Shown piece after piece: positions 21,901 to 53,794 of a stretch of 64,000 nt of DNA (position 1 is its first letter; the number at the start of each line of letters is the position of its first letter). The notes under the pieces are model-generated. The model was not told the origin of the DNA. It saw only the letters and a list, made by a program, of their open reading frames with translations, and searched no databases. Origin of the DNA: Coptis chinensis (Eukaryota; Streptophyta; Magnoliopsida; Ranunculales; Ranunculaceae); contig CM027380.1 of NCBI GenBank assembly GCA_015680905.1, positions 106,669,001 to 106,733,000 on the forward strand, given 5' to 3'. The position numbers and the translations under genes were made by a program.

Positions 21901-21905
21901 GTTAT

Positions 21906-22607
21906 TGTTAGAAAAATGATTTGCTCAAATCCATTTAAATATGAATGAGTAGTTTGTCTCCCAAGTTACCCCACTTAAGATGAAATGGGTTTTTTCTTGA
22001 AACAATGACGTAATGAGAAAAACCTTTTCAAAATGATGCATTTGTTTGAAACAATGCATTATGCGAAAAAGGTGCGACCTTTTCAAAATGCACCGGTTTG
22101 AAACAAGATTGCATCATGCCGAAAAGGTGCAACCTTTTCAAATAGGCACCGGGTTCAAAAATGCTATATGCCGAAATGGTGTGTCCTTTCAAACATGTGA
22201 CTTTTCAAAGAGTTGCTTACTTTTTCCCAAGAGTCACCGTGGTTGTTTTTGAAAAGGCACCACTCACCTATAAATAGTGGATGAATTTGGAGAGAAAAAT
22301 ACACCAGATCACACAGAGTTCTGATCTTTCTCTTCTCCCTCTGTTCTTAGTCAAATACTATGTTGTGTTCGCTGAGTCTATAGAATTGAAGTGCTAGCTT
22401 TCTATAGAAGGAAATCCGTTCTATCTTGGGAGATAGTTTCCCATCAACCTTCAAGCATCGTGAGGGGGAAAATCTGTCTTAAGGACATAGTGTATCTACA
22501 CTAGGCTCGGATTTAATTAAGAAGTACAAGACACTTACAAGACAAAAGGTTTGTATAGTTTGGTAATTGGTAAAGAGTAAGTACAATTAAGTTGTATATT
22601 CCTAACA
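21906..22607 (+). repeat. 5' LTR of Copia 1
   Basis: 702 bp, TG...CA ends. A TATA box (TATAAATA, 22269-22276) marks the promoter, so the transcript should start near 22300. Differences from the 3' LTR cluster between about 22005 and 22255. The last ~350 bp differ at only a few positions. Confidence 0.95.
22269..22276 (+). promoter_or_regulatory. TATA box in Copia 1 LTR
   Basis: TATAAATA follows GGCACCACTCACC. The same box is at 27612-27619 in the 3' LTR, where it could drive transcription out of the element into the neighbouring MULE. Confidence 0.6.
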
Positions 22608-22624
22608 ACTTAAGACAGATTTTC
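22608..22624 (+). promoter_or_regulatory. Atypical primer-binding site of Copia 1
   Basis: Two bases after the 5' LTR lies CTTAAGACAGATTTTC (22609-22624), not the initiator-Met tRNA complement TGGTATCAGAGC usual in plant Copia. These 16 bases are the exact reverse complement of 22468-22483 (GAAAATCTGTCTTAAG) inside the same LTR. The position fits a primer-binding site. The pairing suggests self-priming or a leader hairpin. Confidence 0.55.
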
Positions 22625-22716
22625 TTTTTCTTCTTCTTCTTTAACGCGAAATTTGTTTCTGTTTTCTTTTCTTTTTTGGTTTAAAGGAATAACAAAGTGT
22701 AGTTGTATTTCAGAAT

Positions 22717-25700
22717 ATGGCAACACCACCAGTTACTCCTGCTGTTACTGTTCCCCATTCTGTTCCTCATGGGGAGAAGCCTGAAAAGTTCAATGGAACT
22801 GATTTCAAGCGCTGGCAACAAAAGATGCTCTTCTATCTGACCACCCTTAACTTGGCAAGGTTTCTGTGGGATAAGGCTCCTGATGTAAGCTCTGATGAAA
22901 CCGACAAGGAGAAGGTTTTGGCCAAGGATGCTTGGTTTCATGCTGATTTCTTGTGTAGAAATTATGTTCTTAGCGGGTTGGCTGACTCATTATACAATGT
23001 ATATAGTGTGTTCAAGACTGCTAAGGAACTTTGGGATTCGTTGGACAAGAAATACAAGAGTGAAGATGCTGGCATGAAGAAATTCATAGTTGGCAGATTT
23101 CTTGATTTCAAAATGACGGATAGTAAGACCGTCATAAGCCAAGTCCAAGAACTTCAAGTAATCTTCCATGATGTCATTGCTGAAGGAATGACCCTAGGAG
23201 AATCTTTCCAAGTGGCTGCTATGATTGAGAAATTACCACCATCTTGGAAGGATTTTAAGAACTATCTTAAGCATAAACGCAAAGATATGAATCTTGAAGA
23301 GCTGATTGTCCGTCTAAGGATAGAAGAAGATAACCGCCTATCTGAGAAGAAGGGCAAGGATCCCATGGTGGCAAAGGCCAATGTTGTGGAAGGATCTAGT
23401 GCTAAGGGAAAGAGGAAGCTCCAAGACAAAGCTCAAGGCGAAGAGAGTAGTACGCCTACTAAGTTCAAGGGCAAGTGCTACAACTGTGGAAAGGCTGGAC
23501 ATAAGGCAAGTGAATGTCACAAGCCAAAGAAGTACAAGAAGCAAAAGACTGAAGCAAATGTGACAATGGACACGCTTTCTGATAGTGTTAATGACATGAA
23601 CCTATCTGCTGTGGTTTCTGAATGTCTCATGATTGGAAATGAAAGGGAATGGTGGGTGGATACTGGTGCTACTCGCCACATATGCTCCAACAAGTCGATG
23701 TTCACCACTTATCATCTTTGTGGAAAGGAAGAACAACTCTTTATGGGGAACTCTTCTACGTCCAAGGTTGAAGGCAAAGGAAAGGTGGTGATGAGGTTGA
23801 CTTCTGAGAAGGAACTAACTCTAAATGAGGTGCTCTATGTGCCTGACATTCGCAAGAATTTGGTTTCTTGGTCGCTGCTGAGCAAGAATGGCTTTAAGTT
23901 AGTCTTTGTTTCTGATAAATTTGTACTAACTAAGAATGATGTATTCGTGGGAAAGGGCTATCTTCAGGATGGTCTCTTTAGGATATTTTGTTTTACTATT
24001 GCGCCAAAGAGTGCCAATAAAGTTGAATCTTTTGCTTACTTGATTGAGTCTTCACATGTATGGCATGGTAGATTAGGACATGTTAATTATGATACCTTGC
24101 GTAGATTAATTAATTTGGACTATATACCAAAGATAAAAATAGACCCACACCATAAATGTGAAACTTGTGTAGAATCCAAGTTGACCAGATCATCCTTTCA
24201 TTCCATTGAAAGAAGTACTGAACCTCTAGACTTAATACATACAGATATATGTGATCTTAAGTATGTACAAACTAGAGGTGGTAAAAAGTATTTCATTACT
24301 TTTATTGACGATAGCACTAGATATAGTTATGTTTACTTGTTGAGAAGTAAAGATGAGGCAATTGAAGTGTTCAAGCATTATAAAAATGAAGTTGAAAATC
24401 AACTAAGCAAAAAGATTAAGGCTATAAGGAGTGATAGAGGAGGTGAATATGAATCACCTTTTGAAGGTTTCGCTCAAACATGGAATCATTCATCAAACTA
24501 CGGCTCCTTATTCACCTCAATCAAACGGTATTGCAGAATGCAAAAACCGAACTCTAAAAGAGATGATGAACGCTATGTTGTTAAGTTCTGGTTTGCCCCA
24601 GAATTTGTGGGGGGAAGCTTTGCTTTTTGCCAATTACATTCTCAACAAGATTCCTAACAAGAAGACGCTTTAAACACCATACCTAATTGTGGAAAGGTCA
24701 TCGGACTTCCTACTGAATTCTTAAAAGTGTGGGGTGTCTTGCTAAAGTGGAAGTCCCTAAACCTAAGAAGGTGAAGATAGAACCCAAGACTATTGATTGT
24801 GTATTCATTGGATATGCAAACAATAGTAGTGCATATCGTTTTCTGGTTCATAAATCAGAGATTCAAGATATACATGTTAATACAATTATAGAGTCAAGGA
24901 ATGCTTCATTCTTTGAAAAGACGTTTCCGTATAACATGTGTATAGAGTCAAGTTCAACAAAGAGAACTTTAGATGCTACAACTAGTAACCATCCTACACA
25001 AAGCGAAATTGAGGAGGAACCTAGACGTAGCAAAAGGTCAAGGACGCCAACGTCTTTTGGACCTGATTTTCTAACATACTTGTTGGAAAATAATCCTCAA
25101 ACGTTCAATGAGGCAATGTCATCTCCAGAAGCTACTTATTGGAAAGAAGCAATAAATAGCGAGATTGAATCCATAATGCAAAATCATACATGGGAATTGG
25201 TAGATTTACCATCAGGTTCCAAGACTTTGGGATATAAGTGGATATTCACAAAGAAATTTAAGACTGATGGATCAATCGACAAGTATAAAACTAAACTTGT
25301 GGTCAAAGGCTTTAGACAAAAGGAAGGATTGGATTATTTTGACACTTACTCTCCAGTTACAAGAATAACTTCCATAAGGATGCTAATAGCAATAACATCA
25401 ATACATGGATTTGAAATACATCAAATGGATGTAAAGACGGCATTCTTGAATGGTGAGTTAGATGAAGAAATATACATGGAACAACCCGAAGGGTTTATTG
25501 CTCCTGGACAAGAAAGGAAAGTTTGCAAGCTTGTTAAATCTTTATATGGATTAAAGCAAGCACCTAAGCAATGACATGAGAAATTTGACAATGCAATGTT
25601 GTCAAACGGTTTCAAAATAAATGAGTGTGACAAGTGTGTCTATGTCAAAAGCACTCTAAAGGGATGTGTCATTATTTGTCTCTATGTAGACGATATGCTA

Positions 25701-26620
25701 ATTTTGGGTAGTAATATGGATGTCATAAAATCTACCAAACAAATGTTGTCTAGTAAGTTTGACATAAAAGATTTAGGTGTCGCTGATGTTATCTTAGGAA
25801 TTAAGATCTCTAGGATGGAGGATAGACTTGTTCTATCACAATCTCATTACATTGAGACGATTCTTGACAAGTTCAAGAAATATAACATCACACCAAAAAG
25901 GTCACCAGTTGACGTAAATCTTCATTTAGCCAAAAATATCGGAGATAGCATATCTCAACTAGAATACTCTCGTGATACTTGGTAGTTTAATGTATGTCAT
26001 GAACTGTACAAGGCCCGACATAGCATACTCGTGAGCAAGCTAAGTCGATATAATGAAAGTAATCCCGGCGAGATCATTGGATTGCCATATTGAGAGTTTT
26101 GGGATACTTAAAGTATACTCAGAATTTTGGTTTGCACTATACAAGATATCCAGCCGCCCGTAAAGTATCGCGATGCTAATTGGATATCCGACACTAACGA
26201 CTCAAAGTCCACAAGTGGATATGTCTTTACACTTGAGGTGCACCGTTTCTTGGAAATCCTCAAAACAAACGCGTGCATAGCGAGGTCCACTATGGAATCC
26301 GATTCATAGCATTGGACAAGGCCGAGAAGAAGTAGAGTGGCTTCAAATTTCTTAGAGGATATTCCAAACTGGGGCTAAACACATTACCCGGAAGCATGTA
26401 TACACCGTGACAGCCTAATCTGCTATTGGTAGAGCATCGAGTAGCATGTATAACGGAAGTCTTGACATATACGTCCGTAGACATAATACCGCTAGACAAT
26501 TGCTCTCAAATGGAGTTATCTCAATCGACTATGTAAGGTCAAAAGATAACATTGCAGATCCGCTTACAAAAGGTTTAACAAGAGAGCAAGTAGAAAGATT
26601 ATCAAGGGAATGGGCTTAAA
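22717..26620 (+). pseudogene. Copia 1 gag-pol polyprotein, broken
   Basis: It starts at the ATG at 22717 ([10 protein letters not shown]). The first frame (to 24657) holds a gag domain ([18 protein letters not shown]), a zinc knuckle [14 protein letters not shown] at residue ~254, a protease motif VDTGAT at ~315, and integrase HHCC and core sequence ([28 protein letters not shown]). The frame shifts near 24470 (core continues as [18 protein letters not shown]) and again near 24670. Reverse transcriptase occupies 24729-25985, with YKWIFTKKFK and YVDDMLI, and an internal TGA at 25572 in place of a Trp codon. RNase H (25986-26620) is recognisable ([33 protein letters not shown]) but has many indels. 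It cannot support its own transposition. Confidence 0.92.
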
Positions 26621-27232: not shown

Positions 27233-27244
27233 CATGTGGGGGAT
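27233..27244 (+). promoter_or_regulatory. Polypurine tract of Copia 1
   Basis: TCATGTGGGGGAT runs up to the 3' LTR start and holds the purine-rich stretch GTGGGGGA expected to prime plus-strand DNA synthesis. Confidence 0.5.
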
Positions 27245-27950
27245 TGTTAGAAAAATGATTTGCTCAAATCCATTTAAATATGAATGAGTAGTTTGTCTCC
27301 CAAGTTACCCCACTTAAGATGAAATGGGTTTTTTCTTGAAACAGTACGTAATGTGAGAAAAACCTTTTCAAAATGATGCATTTGTTTGAAATAAAGTGCA
27401 TTATGCGAAAAGGTGCGACCTTTTCAAATGTGCACCGGTTTGAAACAAAGTTGCATCATGCCGAAAAGGTGCAACCTTTTCGAAAGCACCGGTTCAAAAA
27501 GGATGCTTTATATGCCGAAATGGTGTGTCCTTTCGAAACATGTGACTTTTCAAAGAGTTGCTTACTTTTTCCCAAGAGTCACTGTGTTGTTACGAAAAGG
27601 CACCACTCACCTATAAATAGTGGATGAATTTGGAGAGAAAAATACACCAGATCACACAGAGTTCTGATTTTTCTCTTCTCCCTCTGTTCTTAGTCAAATA
27701 CTATGTTGTGTTCGCTGAGTCTATAGAATTGAAGTGCTAGCTTTCTATAGAAGGAAATCCGTTCTATCTTGGGAGATAGTTTCCCATCAACCTTCAAGCA
27801 CCGTGAGGGGGAAAATCTGTCTTAAGGACATAGTGTATCTACACTAGGCTCGGATTTAATTAAGAAGTACAAGACACTTACAAGACAAAAGGTTTGTATA
27901 GTTTGGTAATTGGTAAAGAGTAAGTACAATTAAGTTGTATATTCCTAACA
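27245..27950 (+). repeat. 3' LTR of Copia 1
   Basis: 706 bp, same ends as the 5' LTR. It also contains GAAAATCTGTCTTAAG, the complement of the atypical primer-binding site. Confidence 0.95.
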
Positions 27951-27951
27951 G

Positions 27952-27952
<1 letters not shown>

Positions 27953-27990
<38 letters not shown>
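27953..27990. repeat. (TA)n microsatellite, left border of MULE 1
   Basis: About 19 uninterrupted TA units directly abut the left terminal repeat of the first MULE. Its counterpart is at 33976-34005. Confidence 0.95.
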
Positions 27991-29713: not shown

Positions 29714-32700
29714 TCACTCCAACCTAGTTACAACCATTGCATCGTCTGGCTTTATTTTGTTTCCCCTTCCCGAGTGCTTTCTCTTTTCCCCTCTTAAGCC
29801 TTTTTCCGCACCTTTTTGCCCTCGCTTGAATTGGTTCACAGTAATTATTTTTTTCACTCCTAAACATGTACCAAAACCAAAATTTTGACTACCTTTATCC
29901 AACGGTGCTGTTACACTTGTACCACAACTAACCAAGCTGTTAATATTTTTAAGTGCACTACTTAAAGTACCAGTAAATACTGTAGTTGCTTCCTTACTTC
30001 TAAGGGCTTTATCAATTACAAGTGTAGACATGTGAATTAATTCACTTCGCTTCATAAGATACGATTTATCGGTCAGTTCCACCATCATCAATGACTATCC
30101 CTGTCTTTGTTGTTTTACACCAACGCGTTCAAATGTAATGGTCCGGCAACTTATCAAAATCATGCATCTTGTTCAAATATGACAAAATGTGCCTGCAAGG
30201 GATCCCTGAGCTCTCAATTTTTTTTGCAAGTACATGAAGCAAAATCCAAATCCTTTTTATACATAATTTCCCACACCCTAGACTTTTCTGCGATTTTTCT
30301 TTGAACTTTATAAACTCGACAACTTTCATTCTCACTAAGAAGCTCAAATCTATAACTCAAACTCTCCCACAACTCGTCTTGAAATTTAAAAAACATCTTA
30401 TGTGTATAAACTTCAACCATGTGTACCAAAAAATTGTGGAGCATTTTCATTTTTGGTTTTTCAACCATATCTTTATTATCCGCCATTAGCTCTTCGTGGC
30501 GTTGGCACACAAGTCCCCTACCAAACTGAACCATAAAATCTACCAATGAATTTTCTTTTGAAACATACCTTTTGAAGAATGAATGGGCACTTTCTGCTTG
30601 TTGGCTACTGGACATGCCAGTAGAAAAAATATGATTCACATATGCAGGCACCCATTTGGATCGGATATCATACATTGAAAGTAGCCACTTATTTTTATGT
30701 AAGCCACTCCTCTTAACCAGATCCGTCCACTTCAAATCAAACACTTCCTTCGTCTCGGATCCCCATATGCAGTTTGAGAACTCCCCATAGTACTCACTGT
30801 ATTTAGTTGTATCTAATTTCTCTGGAAACTTCATTAGTATGTGCTAACTACAATACCTGTGATAGAATATACAAAGGCTTTCAGATAATGCAAGTTTCGA
30901 AGGCATTCAGATATTTAAACAAAATGCATGCATAGTGTATATATACTCTCCACAAGATTCAAATATCACAATATCGACAATTCTTACAAAATGGTTCAAA
31001 CTAATGCAAAATACAAAATGCATGCATAGTCCTTCGTCTTGAACTAAAGCTTTTGCAAGTGTTTACGCCCTCCTGTGTGCTAGCCACTGTAGTGAAATTT
31101 GTAAGTCCATTGTCAATGGCCAAAACCATATAGCACACCATATATGTTCATTTAAAATTTATAAAATTGATTGCTTTATAGGCTAAAACCACCATATAAT
31201 TCCAATCAAGAAACAAAATCCATTAATATGTGCAATTGCTTAAGTTGATATAAAATACTCAGGCACCTTCTTGTTCCTTGGTGAAAGAAAATATGAGAAA
31301 CAGACACAACGATGTCACCAAATAAGCTGCAAGCCTAAGAGACTCTTCGAACTCTTTTGAAATTGCTCCAATCCTTGACCAATCCCCACTATATCTGAAG
31401 AAAGGTCTCCAAAACTTCCAATCAAGATCAGTGTTTGAACTATAAAGGGCAATTTAAATGACTTCTAACTAAAGATCAATGTAGAAATGTCAGAGCATTA
31501 TACATCCCCAAATCAGACATTGTGTCCAAGCAAGATCTTGAAGCGAGAAATAAGGAGAATATAGAAATCAAAACAAACTTACATAACGGTGCAAGGACTA
31601 GGAAGTTTACATCATCAAATTGTTTTATTTCATTGATGCACGAATAGAAAAAGCTACTGCAGAAAGCTTATTTCAATAACTTTTCATGGTATATAGATTG
31701 TTGGAATCAATTCGTTATAAAGCAAAATTCATTTATTGGTCTGATCAACAGCATGGTTCTTGGAATTTATTAGAACTGTAATAGCTAGGCTGGCCTAGCC
31801 ATCCTGCTTTCCAATGTACTGATGCAATCTGCCTTCAGATTTCAGGGGTGCATTTTGTATCTTAGTAATTAGTTTCTACCAAGCAAAAAAGAAAAAAAAA
31901 CAAGAGAAAGGTTTTTCTACAATGATATTGTAGGCCAAATAAACGTAGATTAGTCACACGCTTGTTTCTGGTATATGTTGTCATCACTATCTATTGCTTC
32001 ACCTATTTGCACCAATGATCAATTAAGATTAAATCCTATAACAATTGGAGATTCTGAAAATTTGCATTAATGGTAGTACAGTTAATCCTATAAAATTTAC
32101 ATTAATGGTAGTACAGTTATGAATTTTTGAAAATCAAAATCCTATAACATGAATCCAATGACTTCACATCATTCAAAATACTAATTTAAACTTGCTAACA
32201 GTTTAACTTTATAATACTTGTGAAAAGTAGTTTGAAGCGTCTGAGAAATTGCTTTTGTCATTGCTGGATCCTGATATGTTATAATCATCTTCGGGGCCTC
32301 ACCGGGCATAGCTTCTAAAAATTTGTTGAATAACCAAACAAAAGATTCAGTAGTCTCATTGCAGAGAAAAGAGCAAGCAAAAAGAACGGGCAGACCGGGA
32401 TTATTAGCCCTGAATAATGGTGCAAGTATCAACCCATACCGATTGGTATTGTACGTAGTATCAAAGATGACAACATCACCATAAAACTGGTATGCTCGTC
32501 TAGAGGTCACATCTACCCAAAAACAATGAGTAATTCTCTGTTCATCATCTGCCTCAATTTTATAAGTGAAAGAAGGATTCTTTCCATGCTCCAATTTCAT
32601 ATACTCATGAAACATATCTCCATCATAGCCCTTCTTCTTCTTGCGCCTATCCCTTTTCTTATTGTTTAAATCTTTTTGCATGAATCCAATATGTTCTATC

Positions 32701-33290
32701 CCTCCAGATTGCACTCCAAGAAGGCTAAATTATTGATGCTGCGGTTTATTTACCATGTCAAACTGTTGTGTTAAACACTTTTGGGCATCAGAAACACCAC
32801 GACGAGATCTTAGAAATTGTACTCTACTAGGGGTTGACAACGAGTGAGTATGCCTCTCAAAGAATACACTAACTGCAAATAGGCCAGAATTTAACTTCAC
32901 CACTGCAATTCTTGCTTTACAGTTTTCTTTTATAATGCCCCGACGCCTTTTTGCTACAATGTCTGCTATCAATGTACTTTTTCCTTCTTTAAAACAGACG
33001 TACTCTTTCATTACAATTTCATCATTCGTTTTTCTCTGAGACCAACTTCGAATGCTAAACCCAGCTACTTTTGCATATGCATTGTAAAAATTCTTAACAA
33101 CATCAAGTGATTCAAACTCTTGACCATTTTTAGGCTTGAGATCATATGGGACTTCAGGACAATAAATCTCAACACATTCCGCAGGCGCACTAATAGTCAC
33201 CATATCAAAATCTTCATTATCCATTTCAATATCGTCTGACAAAATTCTACCAACATCAACATCAATATCAACATCAGAAGCTTACAAACA
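29714..33290 (-). pseudogene. FAR1/MULE transposase of MULE 1, lightly broken
   Basis: Reading down from 33290: the FAR1 DNA-binding region (33242-32730) with PKNGQEFESLDVVKNFYNAY, CKARIAVV and RHTHSLSTPSR; the MULE transposase core (32714-32181) with VVIFDTTYNTNRYGLILAPL and MIITYQDPAMTKAI; an apparent ~1.3-kb intron; then a C-terminal part (30857-30129) with WVPAYVNHIFSTGMSSSQQA and a SWIM zinc finger (CTCKK ... GIPCRHIL); and a basic tail (30091-29714). Lesions: TAA at 32732-32730 (a Gln codon in kin is likely), TAG in place of Trp just before HILMKFPEK, and one frameshift inside the SWIM finger. The residue after T in TYQD is usually Asp in this family, so a catalytic acidic residue may be lost. 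FAR1/FHY3 light-signalling factors derive from such transposases, but the terminal repeats favour a transposon here. Confidence 0.85.
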
Positions 33291-40640: not shown

Positions 40641-41015
40641 TTCTATCTAATGGTCGCTCCTCTCCTTACATGTCGCTGTGTGTACCCAGTAATTTTAGGG
40701 TTCTGCAAATCTGTTATCCTGCTACCTGTCATTTCATTCTTATTCCGCATCTTGGGCCATGTGACATGTAACCCTGTAGGTCATGAATTAGACTACTACA
40801 TTAATGCAACCGGATTTCTCAGGACAAATATAGCTTATCATATCTTGGGCCAAGATGGTAGCTGACACAAGACTTTAGACTTATTTGGTGTGATTTCCCC
40901 AAATGGTGTAAAACGAATATGGGCCTGTAAAAGGGAAAACAATTAACGTCACTCTTCAAACATAACATTAGCAATTTTTTTTTTTTTTTTTTTTACCTTG
41001 ACTGAGTTGTTGGAA
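40641..41015. other. Upstream region of the PPR gene
   Basis: No coding similarity. An uninterrupted run of about 18 T (40977-40994) lies just before the PPR start codon. No clear TATA box was picked out. Confidence 0.4.
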
Positions 41016-43064
41016 ATGGCGATGTGGAGAAGAGCAGCATGTGTTGTTGGATTGTTGGGTCGCCCGCTGGTAACAAATTTTCCTTCTCTTTTCCATTCCA
41101 AGACTAGTTCTACTACTTCCTCTTTCTCCGATTTTGTACGGGAAAGATGTAAATCAGGGACACTTGGACTCGATGAGGCTTTATGTCTGTTTAATAAGTT
41201 GATTCAGATGAAACACTCGCCTTCCATTTTCCCTTTTAACCAATTACTAGGAGCACTTGTGAAGATGAAACACTTTTCTGTCGCTCTATCTATCTCCAAA
41301 AGGATGGATGCAGCTGGTATTCAACTTAATATTGTTACACTTTCTACACTAATCAATTGTTACTCCAATATGGGTCGGCTTGATTTCGGTTTTGCTATTC
41401 TCGCTAGTATTCTGAAACGCGGATTTGAACCTAGTGTTGTTACTTTGAACACCCTCCTTAAGGGGCTGTGTAAAGGGGGTAAAGTTGCCGAAGCTATAGA
41501 TCTTTTTACCCAAATGCTGGAAAACGGATATCCATGCAATGAAGTCAGTTATGGGACAGTAATGAATGGGATTTGCAAGTCTGTGAATTCTACTGCTGCT
41601 CTTCAATTCAAGAGGGCAATGGAAAAGAGAGAGTTTACTCCTGATGTTCATATATACAATATGCTTATCGACACCCTTTGTAAGGAGAATTTGGTGAACG
41701 AGGCATTGAATCTATTTCAGGAAATGACCTCCAGAAACCTTACACCTAATGTTATCACCTACAGCTCTTTGATTTGCGGGCTATGCGGATCTGGTCGATG
41801 GATAGATTCCATGCATTTATTGGACAAAATGTTGGCGCAGAATGTCACACCGGATGTCATAACCTTTAACATTTTGGTGGATGCATTTTGTAAAGAAGGC
41901 AGGGCAAACAAAGCTTTTGATTTGTTACAACAGATGTCTCAGAGAGGTTTAAAACCTGATGTTTTCACATTTAACTCTTTAATCAGGCACCTATGCACAT
42001 CAAATCAGTGGGAAGATGCCAAGAGGGTATTCAGCCAAATGTTATCTGAGAATGTCTCACCGGATGTTGTAACTTTTAACATCATGGTGGATTCTCTTTG
42101 CAAACAAGGTAGGATAAAGGAGGCTTTTGAGGTATTTCAAGAAATATATAAAAAAGGATTAAAGCCTACCGTTTTCACGTACAATGCTTTAATTGATGGT
42201 TTATACACTTCAGGGAAAGGGAAGGATGCAATAAGACTGTTCAATGAAATGACAGGTAGGGGAATCTTACCAAATGGACACACGTATGGTATTATAATTG
42301 ATGCTTGTTGCAAAGATGGGATGGTCGATGAAGCATTTGAACTATTCCAGACAGTGATTGAAAGAGGTGACGAGGCTAACACAGTCACATACAGTAGTTT
42401 GATGGATGGATATTGCTTGCAAGGGCGGATAACGGAGGCAAAATGTGTTTTCGATTTGATGGTCGCTAGAGGTCATGGTCCTAACGGAATCAGCTATAAC
42501 ATTTTGATCAATGGCTATTGCAAGGCTAGGAGGATGGACAAGGCAGTTCAAGTTTTCAAGGAGATGCAACTTAAGGGAGTCAAACCCAACACTATAACTT
42601 ATAGTACCCTGATAGATGGATTTTGCAAGAGTGGAGAAGTTTTGGTTGCAAAAGAGCTTCTGAAAGACATGAAAGCTTGTGGGGAAAAACCAAACCAGTT
42701 CACATATAGTTCATTAATGCATGGCCTCTTCAGAAATGGTTGTTCTGCTGAAGCAATGGAGCTGTTCCGTGTGATGGAAAATAATGGAATGAAAGCTAAT
42801 GTTCTGATTTACAACATCATCATTGATGGCATGTGCAAAGATGGTAAAATAAGTGAGGCCAAGGAAATCTTTCGTACCCTCTCAGCCAGGGATTTGCAGC
42901 TTATTAACACTAGGACATATAACGTAATGATTAGTGAATGTTTTAGAGAAGGGAATTCAAAGAAGCTCAAGATTTGTTTTATGAGATGCAAGAGAAGGGT
43001 TTTGCTGCAGATGATTTCATCGTTCAATATCATGGTCCAAGGATACCTAGACCAAAAAAAATGA
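41016..43064 (+). CDS. P-class PPR protein, RFL-like, C-terminus frameshifted
   Basis: The predicted protein is 682 aa from the ATG at 41016. A basic, Arg/Ser-rich N-terminus (MAMWRRAACVVGLL) suggests import into mitochondria. From residue ~60 on there are about 17 consecutive 35-residue P-type PPR motifs (e.g. PDVVTFNIMVDSLCKQGRIK, PNTITYSTLIDGFCKSGEVL) and no E, DYW or SMR domain, as in restorer-of-fertility-like proteins that bind organelle RNA. Within the last motif a base is lost near 42957 (frame leaves FKEAQDLFYEMQEKGF) and a compensating shift follows near 43020. An 8-A run at 43053-43060 then brings an early TGA. In the other frame homology continues (THKAKQFLNILLDKGFSPDA) to TAG at 43273-43275. 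The gene is therefore either freshly damaged or misread at homopolymers. Confidence 0.85.
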   Translation: MAMWRRAACVVGLLGRPLVTNFPSLFHSKTSSTTSSFSDFVRERCKSGTLGLDEALCLFNKLIQMKHSPSIFPFNQLLGALVKMKHFSVALSISKRMDAAGIQLNIVTLSTLINCYSNMGRLDFGFAILASILKRGFEPSVVTLNTLLKGLCKGGKVAEAIDLFTQMLENGYPCNEVSYGTVMNGICKSVNSTAALQFKRAMEKREFTPDVHIYNMLIDTLCKENLVNEALNLFQEMTSRNLTPNVITYSSLICGLCGSGRWIDSMHLLDKMLAQNVTPDVITFNILVDAFCKEGRANKAFDLLQQMSQRGLKPDVFTFNSLIRHLCTSNQWEDAKRVFSQMLSENVSPDVVTFNIMVDSLCKQGRIKEAFEVFQEIYKKGLKPTVFTYNALIDGLYTSGKGKDAIRLFNEMTGRGILPNGHTYGIIIDACCKDGMVDEAFELFQTVIERGDEANTVTYSSLMDGYCLQGRITEAKCVFDLMVARGHGPNGISYNILINGYCKARRMDKAVQVFKEMQLKGVKPNTITYSTLIDGFCKSGEVLVAKELLKDMKACGEKPNQFTYSSLMHGLFRNGCSAEAMELFRVMENNGMKANVLIYNIIIDGMCKDGKISEAKEIFRTLSARDLQLINTRTYNVMISECFREGNSKKLKICFMRCKRRVLLQMISSFNIMVQGYLDQKK

Positions 43065-50399: not shown

Positions 50400-50411
50400 G
50401 CTCCGATACCA
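50400..50411 (-). promoter_or_regulatory. Primer-binding site of Copia 2
   Basis: TGGTATCGGAGC on the minus strand, complementary to the 3' end of initiator-Met tRNA with one difference. It contrasts with the atypical site of Copia 1. Confidence 0.85.
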
Positions 50412-53782: not shown

Positions 53783-53794
53783 TGGTATCAAAGC
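53783..53794 (+). promoter_or_regulatory. Primer-binding site of Copia 3
   Basis: TGGTATCAAAGC, one base from the canonical TGGTATCAGAGC complement of initiator-Met tRNA. It marks the end of the 5' LTR region just upstream. Confidence 0.8.

Follow-up and report, generated by a model that had tools for sequence, protein, structure and literature searches.

What primes the reverse transcription of Copia 1, a retrotransposon whose 5' LTR is followed, at the place of a tRNA-complementary primer site, by a sequence complementary to that same LTR? The original prediction was that this Copia may self-prime or carry a regulatory leader hairpin. We addressed the question by searching the window (the whole stretch of DNA analysed, 64 kb) and the 935.6-Mb genome in 116 contigs. 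The genes and elements present mark the DNA as that of a plant.

The window copy of Copia 1 is a full-length but broken insertion, as judged by its LTR pair, target site duplication and Pfam domains. Its features are the following:

21901-21905, plus strand: target site duplication GTTAT, 5' copy, abutting the 5' LTR
21906-22607, plus strand: 5' LTR of 702 bp, TGTTAG...CCTAACA (LTR-LTR alignment)
22269-22276, plus strand: TATA box TATAAATA, at LTR offset 363
22462-22483, plus strand: putative self-primer arm, of which 22468-22483 is perfectly complementary to the site
22488-22503, plus strand: short hairpin that begins four bases beyond the predicted primer 3' end; 22488-22493 pairs with 22498-22503
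22608, plus strand: one-base spacer between LTR and site, from the LTR boundaries
22609-22624, plus strand: putative primer-binding site CTTAAGACAGATTTTC, complementary to the element's own LTR; G.U pairs prolong the duplex to 22630
22717-24657, plus strand: ORF 1, with gag (Retrotran_gag_2, zinc knuckle), Pol beta-barrel domain (PF22936), GAG-pre-integrase and integrase core (Pfam)
24729-25574, plus strand: ORF piece with an SH3-like domain and the first part of the RVT_2 reverse transcriptase (Pfam)
25596-25985, plus strand: ORF piece with the second part of RVT_2 (Pfam)
27245-27950, plus strand: 3' LTR of 706 bp (LTR-LTR alignment)
27811-27826, plus strand: the primer arm again, within the 3' LTR (exact match)
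27951-27955, plus strand: target site duplication GTTAT, 3' copy, abutting the 3' LTR

The order of Pfam domains (Retrotran_gag_2, zf-CCHC, Pol_BBD, gag_pre-integrs, rve, RVT_2) is of the Copia type, with integrase before reverse transcriptase, and RVT_2 is split by an interruption of the open frame between the 24729-25574 and 25596-25985 pieces. Where RNase H would be expected (25985-26600) there is no ORF of at least 120 aa, and by eye the frame appears to change. The motif TGGGGGAT at 27237-27244 (plus strand), adjoining the 3' LTR, we take to be polypurine-tract-like. The two LTRs are identical at 684 of 695 aligned bases, with 18 gap columns; these differences cluster upstream of the TATA box, with every gap column and nine of the 11 mismatches there and just two differing bases in the R/U5 half, a skew that could reflect uneven decay, conversion or sequencing error. 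The U3 region also holds repeated palindromic units of the CGAAAAGGTGCGACCTTTTC type at a spacing of about 55 bp (22055-22142 and 27397-27484), possibly enhancer-like. Transcription typically starts some 30 nt after the TATA box, from which we predict a Copia 1 transcript start at about 22298.

Direct sequence comparison confirmed that 22609-22624 is the perfect 16-nt reverse complement of 22468-22483, and that this complement is repeated in the 3' LTR, at 27811-27826. The site had been placed two bases after the 5' LTR; as the LTR ends at 22607, a single base (22608) lies between. The complement was also said to lie past the predicted start and hence in the RNA, and indeed it stands about 170 nt beyond the start predicted from the TATA box. 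As RNA, the duplex would be prolonged by 22462-22467, through four G.U pairs, one A-U and one G-C.

A published rule for self-priming plant elements, as given in the accessible text of PMC6317226, asks for complementarity to the 5' LTR over 10 nt or more, beginning 0-5 nt past it; Copia 1 has 16 nt at offset 1. For a chance control we applied the same 0-5 nt offset rule to pseudo-sites, allowing a match anywhere in the LTR. Pseudo-sites in the interior of Copia 1 reached an LTR complement of at most 12 nt (6 of 4,517), and those on the plus strand of the window outside LTR areas at most 13 nt (18 of 62,292), so that the 16-nt match is beyond chance, as had been claimed. With up to two mismatches, the arm sequence occurs at three places in the 64 kb, all of them at the site and the two LTR arms; shuffles gave an expectation of 0.05 matches, and none of 100 reached three. 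Genome-wide, the 16-mer has 691 exact matches (335 + 356), against 0 for the reversed control. Many of these are LTR copies without the site: six of the eight extracted loci were one-armed in the scanned stretch, and the other two (L003 and L004) represent opposite arms of a single element.

A primer site for the 3' end of a tRNA begins with TGG, corresponding to the CCA end of the tRNA. No TGG was found in the 53 nt after the 5' LTR of Copia 1, and thus no tRNA 3'-end site is present there. In the four related families described below (B-E), TGG is absent within 30 nt in eight of nine leaders, and the sole TGG of the ninth falls at the gag start codon. We also searched the genome for tRNAs, scoring 63 of 51,287 candidates and reading 30 extracted loci with ARAGORN, which gave 52 tRNA genes, 33 of them distinct, from 7 isotypes. 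Against these 33 tRNAs, a partial set because most isotypes, the initiator Met included, are missing from it, the longest exact complements of the sites of families A (that of Copia 1) to E were 6, 6, 6, 7 and 6 nt. A good tRNA match had been named as evidence against the prediction, and the outcome favours that prediction: no TGG within 53 nt, and a best complement of 6 nt to the window site among seven isotypes. Among the loci read were small arrays of tRNA-Cys (gca) and tRNA-Gln (ttg), at G000:C1:62578592-62580615 and G000:C4:33318905-33320836.

The other two Copias of the window belong with the tRNA-Met-primed plant elements. They had been described as carrying near-canonical sites, and these are found as TGGTATCGGAGC at 50411 (minus strand) and TGGTATCAAAGC at 53783. 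Their position relative to the LTR is like that of the Copia 1 site, but they are of the TGGTATCNNAGC type with an LTR self-complement of at most 6 nt (6 and 4 nt, respectively; for the third Copia, TGGTATCAAAGC, no LTR pair was found and the 245 bp upstream were used), whereas Copia 1 has no TGG-type site and 16 nt. We consider it very improbable that an ordinary tRNA or half-tRNA primer fits the Copia 1 site while the repeat in the LTR is incidental. Half-tRNA primers are described for the Copia lineages Bianca and Osser in the accessible part of PMC6317226, and our tRNA set is incomplete; against this stand the missing TGG and the 6-7 nt of best complement to 33 distinct tRNAs. Moreover, the five families have differing sites that each fit the LTR of their own family, which a tRNA target would not explain.

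To follow the arms among the closest relatives of the window copy (family A), a gag search was run that gave 4,213 candidates, 150 of which were scored. Leaders of 47 loci were aligned (the 30 best and 17 of 20 further stretches, mostly more gag-diverged) and 38 were counted; seven were left out because their LTR arm region is not homologous (L013, L024, L033, L047, L048, L053, L057), together with L050, whose arm is cut off, and L058, the same copy as L038. In these 38 leaders the arms pair at 12.4 of 14 positions on average. Numbered from the primer 3' end and with G.U included, pairs 1-7 are kept in 36-38 copies, pair 8 in 28, pair 9 in 37 and pair 10 in 18; the mismatches concern 10 copies at pair 8 and 20 copies at pair 10, 13 of the latter with the same T in the site. 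With G.U allowed, pairing is unbroken over at least 14 nt in eight copies and over all 16 nt in two, the window copy and L051. Many copies of the family have stops in gag.

Within family A, no compensating double change was seen in the 38 copies. The majority fraction of the site, 0.921, falls below that of the LTR stretch between the arms (0.957) and exceeds only slightly that of the 40 bases downstream (0.907). The decayed pairs, a conservation like that of the surroundings and the lack of compensation indicate, within this family, conservation by descent with decay.

More distant families (B-E) came from the three gag matches with the lowest scores and from a second search that used one of these as query (4,119 candidates, 150 scored, 12 leaders fetched). 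Their arms were located by flanking anchors. A joint MAFFT alignment of four families was discarded for the counts; in it the family D site was misaligned and A was shifted by one base against B and E. The arm table is without L090 and L096 (not extracted) and keeps L099, and in L095 the anchor is misplaced; its mean for family D is accordingly an underestimate. In all, five Copia families (A-E) have a self-complementary site just past the LTR, with differing letters. In family B, L040 (66% gag identity to A) has the LTR arm AAATTCGTCTTTAG and the site CTAAAGACGAATTT, pairing at 14 of 14 positions, and L041 pairs at 13. Family C is a single element (L042) with its duplicate L102; its LTR arm AATATTGTTTTAAG, read from the 3' LTR since the 5' LTR is truncated, in the duplicate likewise, makes 11 pairs and one G.U with the site CTTAAGACAATAAC. 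In family D, L091 and L097 share the arm TTTTTCGTCTTAAG and the site CTTAAGACGAAAAA (14 of 14 pairs), the remaining leaders pair at 12-13 of 14, and lower values are those of L098 (9, with an indel) and L099 (6, a chimera). In family E, L093 pairs at 13 of 14 positions and L101 at 12 plus one G.U.

Measured against the window copy, B-E (one representative each) have 16 double changes that preserve Watson-Crick pairing, against three one-sided changes, all in family C (L042), and one unpaired double change, in family E (L093). The preserved double changes number 3 in L040, 3 in L042, 5 in L091 and 5 in L093, and touch 9 of 14 positions. Under a simple independence model, the chance of matching both positions and complements is 1e-4 for B, 1e-4 for C, 2e-6 for D and 2e-6 for E. 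Likewise, among 120 permutations of arms and sites across the families, the one that joins each arm to the site of its own family scores highest (60.2; runner-up 57.4). The compensatory changes that had been suggested as a check are therefore present between families (16 paired double changes) but absent within family A (none in 38). Conservation of the LTR complement, also suggested, came out in favour of the prediction: the 38 family A leaders pair at 12.4 of 14, and four other families keep the pairing.

The position of the site carries further information. It starts 1 nt past the LTR end in A and 2 nt past it in B and C; in D and E, whose LTR ends were inferred from a terminal ACA motif with no second LTR to fix them, it starts 2 nt past that motif. 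The gap between the arms is 80-82 nt in D, 110-112 in E, 125 in A and 154 in B, the family D range being given without the 46 nt of L095, which reflects the misplaced anchor. With arm gaps anywhere between 80 and 154 nt, the site still keeps to the LTR end, as expected of a primer site, and the helix is thereby linked to the position of the primer.

Two family D leaders are rearranged. In L095 (G000:C6:30436820-30437280) the LTR end is tandemly duplicated and there are two sites, the second of which fits the element's own variant LTR arm (CATC/GATG) better than the first. The leader of L099 (G000:C3:58143340-58143800) is an inverted-duplication chimera, whose arms are 42 nt (95%) and 36 nt (92%) long.

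That the match is chance or a mechanical by-product, for example a small inherited inverted duplication with no function, would agree with the way in which the family A arms decay much like their surroundings. We nevertheless give this explanation hardly any weight, in view of the matched arms with different letters in five families and of chance maxima of 12-13 nt.

Would the arms find each other in the RNA? In the predicted fold of 22298-22720 all 16 site-arm pairs have probabilities of 0.94-0.99, and the isolated site-arm duplex is predicted at 22 bp and -30.0 kcal/mol. Taken as a whole, the leader is little more stable than its shuffled versions, 9 of 100 of which fold as low (z -1.29). 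The helix also forms when shorter leaders of A, B, D (L091) and E (L101) are folded; in isolated leaders it is partial in L093 and at about 0.1, that is, not folded, in L097.

In representatives of all five families, a hairpin stands three or four bases past the predicted primer 3' end. Its alignment comprises 11 chosen rows from the five families, with statistics on 10 distinct rows: 91.1% of cells are paired, against 79.9% when shuffled, and the covariation score is 0.319 against 0.125 (reached by none of 500 shuffles), with at most 0.070 at slid positions. Other measures of the hairpin are unremarkable, namely the pairs with double changes (84 of 500 shuffles), the pair types (455 of 500) and the single-sequence z-scores against shuffles (-0.3 to -1.8). 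The place of the hairpin recalls the U5-IR stem-loop named in the title of one Tf1 paper.

These folds bear on two further explanations. In the first, the paired arms serve as a regulatory structure in the leader, acting on translation, packaging or dimerisation, and something else does the priming. The helix is strong and predicted to lie within the RNA, and its CTTAAG core is palindromic in A, C and D; palindromes can serve as RNA dimer sites. But the palindrome is missing in B and E, and for this reason we dropped CTTAAG as a candidate key feature. The site also keeps to 1-2 nt past the LTR or the ACA motif in five families despite the varying arm gap, and TGG is lacking both in the 53 nt of the window copy and in the 30 nt of eight of the nine B-E leaders. 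Altogether, a purely structural role appears improbable.

The second is self-priming in trans, in which the site pairs with an RNA fragment of another element, derived from one LTR or the other. Since the arm recurs in the 3' LTR, a full transcript reaching it would hold two copies of the primer, and the arms of L097 can prefer other partners in the isolated fold. Still, in the predicted folds of A, B, D (L091) and E (L101) the two 5' arms have a high probability of pairing with each other, and we regard priming in trans as unlikely, if less so than a structural role.

We therefore return to self-priming by the element's own leader. From sequence comparison and folding models, we estimate a probability of roughly 80% that the post-LTR site of Copia 1 is a primer-binding site for its own RNA and that reverse transcription is self-primed, by a primer cut from the LTR part of that RNA. 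The self-priming proposed originally is thus supported by complementarity, between-family covariation, position and the absence of TGG, priming itself being what we infer from them. Mechanistically, the leader fold would bring 22609-22624 onto 22468-22483, and the RNA would then be cut after 22483, the predicted 3' end of the primer, beside the hairpin; the likeliest nuclease is the RNase H of the element, by analogy with Tf1. From the freed 3' end, minus-strand synthesis would run through 22608 and stop near 22484, and the strong-stop product, roughly 125 nt long, would fall short of the RNA 5' end. With strong-stop synthesis ending near 22484, the first template jump would need a poly(A) site beyond 27826. 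Plus-strand synthesis would in turn recopy the site from the primer, and the arms might for that reason be more easily kept matched.

The TATA box lies 201 nt before the 14-nt arm in A and 186 nt before it in D (L091, L097). With a start predicted about 30 nt after the TATA box, the arm would stand some 155-170 nt inside the transcript. We also advance a more detailed joint reading, tentatively and at a little under even odds: in plant Copias of this group the primer would be cut from an internal stretch of the leader at a hairpin-marked site, the cut and not the transcript start would set the 5' end of the first-jump repeat, and each round could rewrite the site from the LTR.

How does this compare with known systems? 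The Tf1 primer is the opening 11 nt of the RNA, released when RNase H cuts between bases 11 and 12 (PMC7175516, in its accessible part). Tf1/sushi elements resemble Copia 1 in having, past the 5' LTR, a site that pairs with RNA of the same element, and extra structure beside the duplex (accessible parts of PMC7175516 and PMC10085805). They are Ty3/gypsy elements, however, and their primer is the RNA 5' end, whereas Copia 1 is a Copia by domains and their order, with the arm about 155-170 nt inside the predicted transcript. The analogy with Tf1 drawn in the original prediction consequently stands as to function (self-priming) but not as to the primer, which in Copia 1 is putatively internal. 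Fungal GalEa elements are, like Copia 1, Copias without a tRNA site and with a structure at that place; in their Conserved Hairpin Site both arms come after the LTR, while Copia 1 has one arm within it, and GalEa has, according to its authors, no U5 sequence complementary to the hairpin site (PMC5445492, accessible part). Our search for relatives in viral contigs returned none, and in genome contigs one, a Trichormus MAG with 43% over the reverse transcriptase, which was set aside.

The closest comparison is with the Ty1/copia TAR lineage (Houba, Osr-1, Fourf), which shares with Copia 1 the Copia domain order, a 5-bp target site duplication and an own-LTR site that replaces the tRNA site. According to the accessible text of PMC6317226, self-priming is predicted for 12% of the plant elements surveyed and, among Copias, for the TAR lineage, with an earlier proposal cited for Houba and Osr-1. 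Judged by primer type, Copia 1 likely belongs to this lineage, and since self-priming has already been predicted for it, Copia 1 adds to a known mode. For plant Copias that mode rests, in the same accessible text, on the complementarity rule alone (PMC6317226). What is added here is the between-family covariation, the hairpin and a putative primer inside the transcript, some 155-170 nt from the predicted start, unlike in Tf1. The listings of an open-access literature search contained no paper on covariation or an adjacent hairpin in TAR-type elements, which we do not take as absence from print.

The covariation and the shared hairpin at the predicted cut make self-priming precisely testable, through an RNA end at 22483/22484 and a cDNA start at 22608. 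If true, the Copia elements of families A-E would start copying without host tRNAs. A review from 2025 on how plant LTR retrotransposons complete their life cycle does not contain the string 'self-prim'; its accessible text names tRNA-derived primers only and describes tRNA fragments as triggers of silencing (PMC12786077). Self-primed elements should, if so, escape silencing triggered by tRNA fragments, and the internal-cut reading, if true, would describe a self-priming pathway distinct from that of Tf1 and beyond tRNA-fragment control.

Elsewhere in the window, two coding regions were noted by eye. On the minus strand, 29714-33242 holds ORFs that resemble a FAR1/MULE-type transposase-derived gene, and 40998-43064 is a long open frame of the pentatricopeptide-repeat type.
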